Assembly: GCA_026225565.1 (NCBI GenBank)
Contig: JAMFTA010000121.1
Coordinates: 1-44,951 of the forward strand
Source: Caulobacter sp.
GTDB lineage: Bacteria > Pseudomonadota > Alphaproteobacteria > Caulobacterales > Caulobacteraceae
Reading direction: 5' to 3'
DNA: 44,951 nt
Position 1 is the stretch's first letter, and every line of letters begins with the position of its first letter. A program made the position numbers and the translations under genes. Under the pieces are notes generated by a model that saw only the letters and a program-made list of their open reading frames with translations, had not been told where the DNA came from and made no database searches. This document shows, one piece after another, positions 806-36,826 of this stretch.

Positions 806-925
806 CTAGGGTTCCGACGCCCCTTCGTCACCCGCCTCAAGCAGATTGAACTCGTGCCAGACACCGTTCAAAACGCCAAAGGCGATGGCCAGGCTGACCC
901 CAAGGATCCAGGCGAAGTACCACAT
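806..925 (-). CDS. cydX: Cytochrome bd oxidase small subunit CydX
   Basis: This 39-residue protein starts at ATG 925 and stops at TAG 806-808. It begins MWYFAWILGVSLAIAFG, the hallmark start of the CydX/YbgT family, and has one transmembrane helix and an acidic tail. CydX binds CydAB and stabilises the haem-containing core of the bd quinol oxidase. The start is 30 bp after the cydB stop and is preceded by a good ribosome-binding site (TTAGGAG, about 8 nt upstream). The gene closes the cydABX operon. Confidence 0.93.
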   Translation of the reverse strand: MWYFAWILGVSLAIAFGVLNGVWHEFNLLEAGDEGASEP

Positions 926-3736: not shown

Positions 3737-3777
3737 ATCTTAGACCTTTTCGGGGTTGCAACCTTGATTTTAATCAA
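3737..3777 (-). promoter_or_regulatory. FNR/FixK-dependent promoter of cydABX
   Basis: A perfect dyad TTGAT-TTTA-ATCAA lies at 3764-3777, the consensus for FNR/FixK/Anr-type Crp-family regulators. On the cydA strand a TAAGAT -10-like hexamer lies at 3742-3737. That would start transcription near 3730, about 40.5 bp from the centre of the box, the geometry of a class II activator site. The dyad is symmetrical, so it may also serve cydDC: 41.5 bp the other way falls on the cydD ATG at 3812. The box is seen; regulation by oxygen is inferred. Confidence 0.8.
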
Positions 3778-30019: not shown

Positions 30020-30142
30020 CCACAGCAGCGTTGAGAGCGCCGCGGGGGTCCGCGCGATTGTCCATATCTCCACGGTACGGGTCAGCGCCGCGGCGGACGG
30101 CCTGCATCTGGTTGCGGTGTCGGAGCCGGTCAGCCGGGCGTC

Positions 30143-30325
30143 TTAGCCCGTATGGCTATGGACCGGATGTCCGCTGGCCGCCGGGTCATCGAGGCCATGC
30201 TTGCGCCAAGTCGATCGCTGCACCGGAGGCTGGGTGAACCAAACCATGAACATCAAAAGTGACGGATAGCCGACGACGAAGATGAAGAAGATGGCGAAAA
30301 CTAGGATCAGTTCAGATAGCGTCAT
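30143..30325 (-). CDS. 60-residue membrane protein, likely hypoxia-regulated
   Basis: It starts at ATG 30325, with AGGAGG at 5 nt, and ends at 30143. An N-terminal hydrophobic helix (about 5-30, with two Phe-rich segments around a GYPS break) is followed by the polar tail FTQPPVQRSTWRKHGLDDPAASGHPVHSHTG, which ends with three His. It does not match CcoQ, FixS/CcoS or CydX. A perfect FNR/FixK box lies 51 bp upstream of the ATG, in class II position for a start near 30341. A small subunit or assembly partner of a micro-oxic respiratory complex is a reasonable guess only. Confidence 0.75.
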   Translation of the reverse strand: MTLSELILVFAIFFIFVVGYPSLLMFMVWFTQPPVQRSTWRKHGLDDPAASGHPVHSHTG

Positions 30326-30375
30326 GGCGTCCTCCTACGATAAGGACACTCGACCGCAACCCAGATCCCTCGACC

Positions 30376-30389
30376 TTGATCCCGATCAA
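30376..30389 (-). promoter_or_regulatory. FNR/FixK box
   Basis: TTGAT-CCCG-ATCAA is a perfect match to the FNR/FixK dyad and the second in this window. It lies 57 bp (centre to ATG) before the 60-residue membrane protein gene and 32 bp beyond the purU stop, so it can serve only the small gene. No clear -10 element is seen at the expected distance. Confidence 0.8.
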
Positions 30390-30420: not shown

Positions 30421-31299
30421 TTATCGGCCAAAGACCACTGTCTTCACCCCGTTGATCAGGATGCGGTGCTCGGCGTGCCAGACCACCGCCCGCGCCAGCA
30501 CGGAGCATTCAATGTCCTGGCCGATCTTGACCAGATCGTCGGGGGTATGGCCGTGGTCCACCCGCTGCACCCCCTGCTCGATGATCGGACCCTCGTCGAG
30601 ATCGGTGGTGACGTAGTGGGCGGTGGCGCCGATAATCTTCACCCCCCGCTCGAACGCCTGGTGATAGGGCTTGGCGCCCTTGAAGCTCGGCAGGAACGAG
30701 TGGTGGATGTTGATGCAGCGCCCGGCCAGCCGTTCGCACATCTGCGGCGACAGGATCTGCATGTAGCGGGCCAGCACCACCAGATCGACGGCAAGCGCGT
30801 TCACCAGGGCCAGGAATTGGTCTTCCTGGGCCGCCTTGGTCTCCTTGGTCACCGGCAGGAGGTGGAAGGGCAGGCCATTCCACTCCACGAAGGAGCGCAT
30901 GGCGTCGTGGTTGGAGACCACTCCGACGATCTCCACCGGCAGCTGGCCTGAACGCCAGCGGTGCAAGAGGTCATAGAGGCAATGGCCGAACCTGGAGACG
31001 GCGATCAGCACCCGCGGTTTGATGGCCGCCGCGTGCAGGCTCCACTGCATGTCGAAGCGGCGGGCGATCAGCGCAAAGCCGCGCTCCAGGTCAGCCTTGT
31101 CGGGCATGGCGGCGCCGTCGGCGCGAAACACCGTGCGCATGTAGAACTCGTCGGCGATGGCGTCGTTGAAGTGGTTGGACTCCACGATCGAGGCGTCGTT
31201 GTCAGACAGGAAGCTGGAGACGGCCGCCACCACGCCCTTGCGGTCTGGGCACTTGACCACCAGCACGAAGTCGTCGGCGGTCTTTGACGGTTTGGTCAT
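30421..31299 (-). CDS. purU: Formyltetrahydrofolate deformylase
   Basis: This 292-residue cytoplasmic enzyme hydrolyses 10-formyl-THF to THF and formate, which balances the one-carbon pool and feeds purine synthesis. An N-terminal ACT domain (about 10-85; VKCPDRKGVVAAVSSFL) is followed by the formyltransferase fold with the catalytic Asn-His-Asp set: INIHHSFLPSFKGAKPYHQAF and TTDLDEGPIIEQ. Length matches the family. It stands alone. Confidence 0.95.
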   Translation of the reverse strand: MTKPSKTADDFVLVVKCPDRKGVVAAVSSFLSDNDASIVESNHFNDAIADEFYMRTVFRADGAAMPDKADLERGFALIARRFDMQWSLHAAAIKPRVLIAVSRFGHCLYDLLHRWRSGQLPVEIVGVVSNHDAMRSFVEWNGLPFHLLPVTKETKAAQEDQFLALVNALAVDLVVLARYMQILSPQMCERLAGRCINIHHSFLPSFKGAKPYHQAFERGVKIIGATAHYVTTDLDEGPIIEQGVQRVDHGHTPDDLVKIGQDIECSVLARAVVWHAEHRILINGVKTVVFGR

Positions 31300-34494: not shown

Positions 34495-36826
34495 CGCGAC
34501 CCGCACCCCCAGGGGGACCACCGTTTCCAAGCCGACCGCTCCCGACCGGAGCCCCGACGTTTCCGCGCAGCTCGACGCCGCCGTCGGCCCTCCCGGAGTT
34601 GAGGAGGCGTCGGCGCGCTTCATCATGGACGTGGCTCCTTCGGTCGCCGCCACCTGGAGGCCCCACCGCCCTGCCCGCCCGGAAAAGTCCGAAGGCGGAC
34701 GAAAATTCAACCTGGTCGCTCCCTATTCCCCCGCAGGCGACCAGCCGACCGCCATCAAGGAGCTGGTCGAGGGCATCAAGGCGCAGGAGGGCGATCAGGT
34801 GCTCTTGGGCGTCACTGGCTCGGGCAAGACCTTCACCATGGCGTCCATCATCGCCGAGACCCAGCGGCCCGCCCTGATCCTCGCCCCCAACAAGACCCTG
34901 GCGGCCCAGCTCTATGGGGAGTTCAAGAGCTTCTTCCCCGACAATGCAGTGGAATACTTCGTCAGCTACTACGACTACTACCAGCCCGAAGCCTATGTCC
35001 CGCGCACCGACACCTATATTGAGAAGGATTCATCCATCAACGAGCAGATCGACCGGATGCGGCACTCGGCCACCCGCGCGATATTGGAGCGGGACGATGT
35101 GATCATCGTCGCCTCGGTTTCCTGCATCTACGGCATCGGGTCGGTGGAGACCTATACGGCCATGACCTTCAGCCTAGAAATCGGCGAGATCGTCGACGAG
35201 CGGCGGCTGATGGCCGATCTGGTGGCCCTGCAATATAAGCGCAACGACGCGTCCTTCGTGCGCGGCTCCTTCCGCCGGCGCGGCGACGTGATCGAGATCT
35301 TCCCCGCCCACTATGAGGATCGCGCCTGGCGCATCTCCCTGTTCGGGGAGGAGGTGGAGTCGATCACCGAATTCGACCCCCTGACCGGCAAGAAGACCGC
35401 CGACCTGCCGTCAGTGAAGATCTACGCCAACAGCCACTATGTGACGCCCCGCCCGACCCTGAAACAGGCCATCGACCACATCCGCGTGGAGATGATCGAG
35501 CGCCTGGCCTGGATGAACGACACCGGCAAGCTCCTGGAGGCCCAACGGCTGGAGCAACGCACGCGCTTCGATCTTGAGATGATGGAGACCACTGGCTCCT
35601 GCGCCGGCATCGAGAACTATAGCCGCTACCTCACCGGCCGCCTGCCGGGCGAGCCGCCGCCGACCCTGTTCGAATATGTGCCGGAAAACGCCCTCCTCTT
35701 CACCGACGAGAGCCACCAGACCGTGCCGCAGATCGGCGCCATGTACAAAGGCGACCGCAGCCGCAAGACCACCCTGGCCGAATACGGCTTCCGCCTGCCC
35801 TCCTGCATGGACAACCGCCCTTTGAAGTTCGAGGAGTGGGACGCCATGCGGCCGCAGACGGTGCACGTCTCCGCCACCCCCGGTCCGTGGGAGCTGGACA
35901 AGACCGGCGGCGTCTTTGCCGAACAGGTGATCCGCCCCACTGGCCTGATCGACCCGCCCGTGGAGGTGCGTCCGGTCTCCAAGACCCCCGACGGCCGCCC
36001 CTTCAGCCAGGTGGACGACGTGATCGCTGAGGTGAAGCAAACCGCCCTCATAGGCTACCGCACCCTGGTCACCGTTCTGACCAAGAAGATGGCCGAAGAC
36101 CTCACCGAATATATGCACGAGCAGGGGGTGCGGGTGCGCTACATGCACTCCGATGTGGATACGGTCGAGCGGATCGAGATCATCCGCGATCTGCGCCTGG
36201 GCGCCTTCGACGTCTTGATCGGCATCAACCTGCTGCGCGAGGGTCTGGACATTCCCGAGTGCGGCCTAGTCGCCATCCTGGACGCGGACAAGGAGGGGTT
36301 CCTGCGCTCGGAAACCTCGCTCATTCAAACCATCGGCCGAGCCGCCAGAAACGTCGACGGCAAGGTGATCCTCTACGCCGACCGCATCACCGGCTCCATG
36401 GAGCGGTCCATGGCGGAGACCCAGCGCCGCCGGGAAAAGCAGCACGAATTCAATCTTGCTAACGGCATCACCCCGGAAAGCATCAAGAGCAACATCAAGG
36501 ACATCCTCGACAGCCCCTATGAGAAGCAAGGAAGGGTGCAGGTGGACGCCGGGGTGGCTGAGGCCGCCAAGCCCTTCCTGGGCTCCAACTTCCAGGCCAC
36601 GTTGCGGGACCTCGAAAGCAAGATGCGCGAGGCGGCCTCGAACCTCGAATTTGAAGTCGCCGGCCGCATCCGCGACGAGATCAAGCGCCTGAAACTGCTG
36701 GACCTGGAATTCGCCAACGACGTCATGACCGGCGTCGGCGAAACCGTGGACAAGGCCGAACCCGCCCGCCTGCGCAAAGAGGCGCGGGCGGAGGCGGCGG
36801 AGCGCTTCCGGAAGGGGCGGCTGTGA
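34484..36826 (+). CDS. uvrB: UvrABC excision nuclease subunit B
   Basis: This DNA-damage-verifying helicase-like subunit loads UvrC. 780 residues from ATG 34484. Walker A GVTGSGKT is at about 109-116, the beta-hairpin [12 protein letters not shown] follows at about 163, then DESHQT, the helicase motif GRAARN, and the C-terminal UVR motif ([30 protein letters not shown]). The first 80 residues or so are a Pro/Ala-rich extension absent from E. coli UvrB (673 residues). The start is uncertain: a GTG at 34427 and ATG 34625 are in frame, and none has a good ribosome-binding site. Confidence 0.97.

Follow-up and report, generated by a model that had tools for sequence, protein, structure and literature searches.

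The 44,951-nucleotide stretch of Caulobacter sp. DNA analysed here (the window) carries a perfect FNR/FixK box at promoter distance from an ORF coding for a 60-aa single-helix membrane protein, P0001, which is probably a fast-diverging member of an FNR/FixK-led group of micro-membrane proteins in its Caulobacterales family. The box, its geometry, the ORF, the recurring architecture and the cyd neighbourhood in relatives were all observed. Because this cyd neighbourhood is repeated, cytochrome bd is favoured as the partner, and there is a nearly even chance that P0001 serves a terminal oxidase of low-oxygen respiration, cytochrome bd first of all, as a small accessory subunit or as a stabiliser.

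The P0001 gene, its box and its likely regulator

P0001 (MTLSELILVFAIFFIFVVGYPSLLMFMVWFTQPPVQRSTWRKHGLDDPAASGHPVHSHTG) is encoded on the reverse strand at positions 30143-30325, with a Shine-Dalgarno AGGAGG (30331-30336, reverse strand) 5 nt ahead of its ATG, in line with the preliminary description of a short gene bearing such a site. Its upstream neighbour on the same strand is purU (formyltetrahydrofolate deformylase; 30421-31299), and the 95-bp gap between the purU stop (30421) and the P0001 ATG (30325) contains the box (30376-30389). A weak terminator-like stem lies about 100 nt past the P0001 stop (30025-30043, reverse strand), a single stem vs. 0.6 expected in shuffles, which is not significant. 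The cydABX genes are 26 kb away.

The dyad at 30376-30389 is indeed perfect, as had been described (TTGATCCCGATCAA), and its centre falls 57.5 nt before the P0001 ATG; for most other box-led genes this distance is 54-65 nt. It is the only site in the window that fits the 16-mer FixK/FnrN consensus TTGANCNNGATCAANG given in PMC4999443, and it does so in both orientations. Three perfect TTGAT-N4-ATCAA dyads were observed in the window vs. 0.02 expected from dinucleotide shuffles, which bears out the earlier estimate of far fewer than one. The sole other perfect copy had been said to control cytochrome bd; there are in fact two others, one between the divergent cydA (reverse strand) and cydD (forward strand) genes (3764-3777), and one within uvrB (36215-36228), which is probably a chance match since it lies inside coding sequence. 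The uvrB copy falls in the conserved stretch DVLIGINLL. Box 30376-30389 has no gene start on its other flank and can therefore have no target but the 60-aa ORF.

For the regulator, the genus was searched with a FixK-like protein of the congeneric genome G001, and the source genome (98% complete) gave a single homologue (C137:25409), with CRP-type domains, an N-terminal C-x3-C-x2-C-x7-C cluster and further cysteines. This FNR-type regulator is flanked by hemN and ompW and has a perfect box next to it (L083:5284-6006, G000:C137). Being of the FNR/FnrN kind, it would sense oxygen via an iron-sulphur cluster, as is established for FNR. A second congeneric genome, G002, has a regulator of the same type, also with the cysteine cluster, making two Caulobacterales genomes in which such proteins were seen (L083:5284-6006; L381); G001 has cysteine-poor FixK-like proteins in their place. 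Judged from their sequences, the source genome and G002 look like exceptions to the loss of FnrN in Caulobacterales stated in PMC4999443. Since the sole regulator found is of the FNR type with a cysteine cluster, the site was read as an FNR site: the likely activator of P0001 would be an FNR-type protein, and FixK, proposed earlier, is unlikely.

As for the protein, AlphaFold predicts a helix over residues 3-31 (pLDDT 93-97 over the helix; hydropathy 2.64) followed by a soluble tail, in agreement with the single hydrophobic helix described before. Lysine and arginine occur only after the helix, i.e. an N-out/C-in pattern. The tail does contain histidines, but its C-terminal end is HSHTG and not the histidine previously reported.

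Taken as a whole, P0001 is very likely a real FNR-controlled gene. Four of the seven perfect boxes of the source genome lie within coding sequence and are probably due to chance, and the same might be asked of box 30376-30389; a chance origin is nevertheless the least probable of the alternatives, given the shuffle expectation, the fit to the 16-mer consensus in both directions and the position at promoter distance from the one gene that it could serve. It is improbable that the box serves to express a small regulatory RNA of the E. coli FnrS kind, with the ORF incidental: chance 60-codon ORFs are common in the GC-rich DNA of the window and the GC3 of P0001 (0.69) is modest and low for the source genome, but AGGAGG is ideally spaced, the helix is strongly hydropathic and the same type of ORF recurs behind boxes in other genera. 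Very improbable, too, is a type I toxin-like hydrophobic peptide, suggested by the size, the single helix and a meaningless TisB match of one group member (E=0.73); a strong Shine-Dalgarno and FNR activation point instead to steady expression, and a shallow look brought up no antisense RNA or antitoxin feature.

Relatives in the genus and in the family

No homologues of P0001 were found at E<=0.001 in 60 relatives, GTDB contigs and plasmids, nor any relatives in phages, and nothing rose above noise in 299 family genomes, where the weak matches were antisense or frame noise. A profile search of the PDB gave no match, nor did the Pfam and NCBIfam profiles up to E=10, those of CcoQ/FixQ and CcoS/FixS among them. 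The CydX (PF08173) and CydP (NF045611) profiles also failed to match, and the earlier statement that P0001 fits no CcoQ, CcoS/FixS or CydX pattern thus holds, for CydP as well. A literature search retrieved no paper on FNR-led micro-membrane proteins, and the portions consulted of published accounts of alphaproteobacterial FNR/FnrL/FixK regulons make no mention of such a small protein. Behind purU, a synteny check of relatives showed neither box nor small ORF. On the point of homologues with a conserved box, raised earlier, P0001 is therefore a sequence orphan, while architecture and promoter are conserved in sister genomes.

The genus sample consisted of three genomes: the source genome (G000), G001 and G002, an uncultured Caulobacterales MAG. 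Inspection of the sequence behind the boxes of the genus turned up two candidates. G001a is a 62-aa single-TM protein with a box 63.5 nt upstream, two genes beyond cydAB. In the source genome itself, a 56-aa single-TM protein, G000b, is encoded between ompW and fnr (L083:4827-5063, G000:C137), with hemN also near the locus and a one-mismatch box centred 62.5 nt before the ATG. A box-blind HMM built from four candidates matched a 58-aa protein in G002:C3 (E=6.9e-5), whose gene starts 57.5 nt after one of the three perfect boxes of that genome and comes next after cydA-cydB-cydX. In leave-one-out comparisons, none of 2000 shuffles scored as well as G000b, G002 or G001a, and 19 did for P0001. The pairwise score of P0001 and G000b was exceeded by 1/2000 shuffles, and P0001 and the G002 protein have the same box distance (57.5) and Shine-Dalgarno; in P0001 an additional residue separates the ELI motif from the helix proline. 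G001b (46 aa), which is not directly box-led, was marginal (34/2000) and was kept out of the main group. In G001, a low-oxygen cluster of about 50 kb (C27:98000-152000; L080-L082) has six perfect FNR/FixK boxes, with genes for universal stress and Hsp20-like proteins, FixK, hemN, ompW, cydDCAB and two tiny membrane proteins.

The promoter pattern box-N26..46-GGAG-N4..9-ATG was searched in 99 genomes of the same family and gave 53 sites, vs. none for the reversed pattern. The source genome has just one such site, that of P0001, and G002 likewise one, that of the 58-aa protein. Behind 11 of the 53 promoters stands a single-TM ORF of 33-64 aa, CydP being one of these; other box-led genes code for cytochromes, universal stress proteins and others. 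In known targets, the box-to-ATG distance is about 52-67 nt for rhizobial hemN and 55-64 nt for cytochromes, universal stress proteins and CydP. Among starts with Shine-Dalgarno and ATG, small TM ORFs made up 14/199 at 48-71 nt from a perfect box, vs. two at all other sampled distances; as patterns that fix this distance fetched part of the set, it is the ratio that counts as evidence here, rather than the absolute number. Since the group came largely from searches that started from the box, its association with the box is partly built in. About 30 genomes were also scanned behind cydB without regard to boxes: apart from CydX, small TM ORFs turned up in no more than three of them, the congeneric G002 and, from other genera, G067 and G011, each time preceded at 57-65 nt by a box with 0-1 mismatch.

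Other members share a core, x-A-[IV]-x-[AST]-x-F-x-x-F-M-x-x-L-G-x-x-S-x-[YW]-[ST], and those with it had no Pfam or NCBIfam match. One member directly follows cydC (G120) and another stands behind cydDC (G067); the neighbourhoods are varied (purU, bioY/rimP, SemiSWEET-like/SCP2-like, ompW), many away from any oxidase. In the 13 group proteins checked, lysine and arginine occur only at the helix end or after it, which by the positive-inside rule makes the tails cytoplasmic. Against a model from other genera, G000b scored 20.7 bits, which none of 2000 shuffles equalled, as compared with 35/2000 for G002 and 1578/2000 for P0001. By these scores a family exists, with one clear member in the source genome, the better-conserved G000b, and P0001 is at best a divergent copy that has promoter, size, topology and helix in common with it. 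P0001 does combine a box, a Shine-Dalgarno and a single N-out/C-in helix in a protein of 33-64 aa, by which the group is defined here.

Some other searches were discarded. A five-candidate profile run over 385 genomes of the class returned only transporters and noise, without a box. Pro-Thr-Gly or Pro-[Ser/Thr] patterns behind a box gave mostly chance matches and hemN, Pro-[Ser/Thr] finding the G002 gene again, and candidates from G795 and G307 failed the shuffle test.

A possible role in low-oxygen respiration

Upon falling oxygen, the FNR-type regulator would activate P0001 as a class II activator, from a box that would be centred near -41.5 and leave a short 5' UTR with barely enough room for the ribosome site. 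The predicted product would be a 60-residue N-out/C-in single-helix membrane protein, whose helix may pack against an oxidase, as those of CydX or CcoM do, and so join or stabilise it. The preliminary description had suggested an undescribed component of low-oxygen respiration: P0001 is indeed unannotated and box-led, with relatives partly beside cydABX, and the respiratory role is plausible from regulation and neighbourhood.

Two other readings have to be weighed against this one. P0001 could be an unrelated orphan, sharing length, helix and promoter by coincidence. Its sequence signal is marginal or absent, depending on the model (19/2000 in the leave-one-out comparison, 1578/2000 with other genera), and the extra residue before the helix proline points the same way; yet only one shuffle in 2000 beat its score with G000b, and box distance and Shine-Dalgarno are identical to those of the G002 protein. 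Such a coincidence is considered unlikely, and membership of the group fairly likely. P0001 may also be FNR-activated but no part of an oxidase, i.e. a general membrane stress protein of low-oxygen conditions, or one that regulates a transporter or protease, a possibility that deserves attention as a minority view. Many stress-induced single-helix proteins regulate transporters or proteases or act in membrane stress. The varied neighbourhoods of the members fit this role, as does the fast drift of their sequences, as if only a greasy helix and a basic cytoplasmic tail mattered. About five instances in several genera, however, adjoin cydAB, cydX or cydC, more than expected of random placement.

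The accessory-subunit reading, which we retain for P0001, can be extended more tentatively to the whole group: an undescribed, family-wide set of FNR/FixK-induced single-helix subunits of 33-64 residues, belonging to cytochrome bd (perhaps cbb3), opposite in topology to CydX and duplicated in the source genome, might be at hand. CydX, CcoM and similar small subunits went unnoticed for years, yet they are decisive for the working of their oxidases. The signature of a box and a small ORF, recurring beside cydAB, is a simple sequence route to subunits of this kind, and the candidates that it yields can be tested directly in cultured relatives from Caulobacter and Brevundimonas.

Comparison with known systems

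CydX (YbgT, PF08173), the small subunit of cytochrome bd-I, is likewise small, single-helix and tied to a low-oxygen oxidase, and it adjoins the P0001 relative in G002. Unlike it, P0001 lacks the N-terminal MWYFxW and shows no sequence match, and the window already has a genuine and separate cydX (39 aa; 806-925, reverse strand; PF08173, E=1.9e-15) behind cydAB. The C-terminal tail of CydX is acidic, free of lysine and arginine and predicted to be periplasmic (PMC5322542), whereas the tails of the group are basic and predicted to be cytoplasmic, hence the opposite topology.

CcoM (36 aa; Pseudomonas stutzeri cbb3, PDB 5djq chain N), which matters at low oxygen (PMC10433244), comes nearest to the 33-38-aa members in both size and topology, with the same N-out/C-in charges and a lone helix, P0001 being longer. 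No sequence relationship was found between CcoM and the group model (340/2000 shuffles as good), and the group profile did not find 5djq in the PDB.

CydP, a putative small subunit of cytochrome bd, is also a single-helix protein. In G011:C19 (L343:1568, reverse complement) it was identified by NF045611 (4.3e-9), directly before cydA and behind a perfect box; the cyd locus of this genome has box-led micro-proteins on both flanks, CydP on one side and a 55-aa protein behind cydB on the other. P0001 and the other members differ from CydP in the position of the helix and in their termini, and have no NF045611 match.

Finally, the alphaproteobacterial FNR/FnrL/FixK regulons offer the same box, the same spacing and the same neighbours, namely cydAB, hemN, ompW and universal stress proteins, and the C. 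crescentus FixK targets given in PMC3751524 include ompW, cydA and ccoN.
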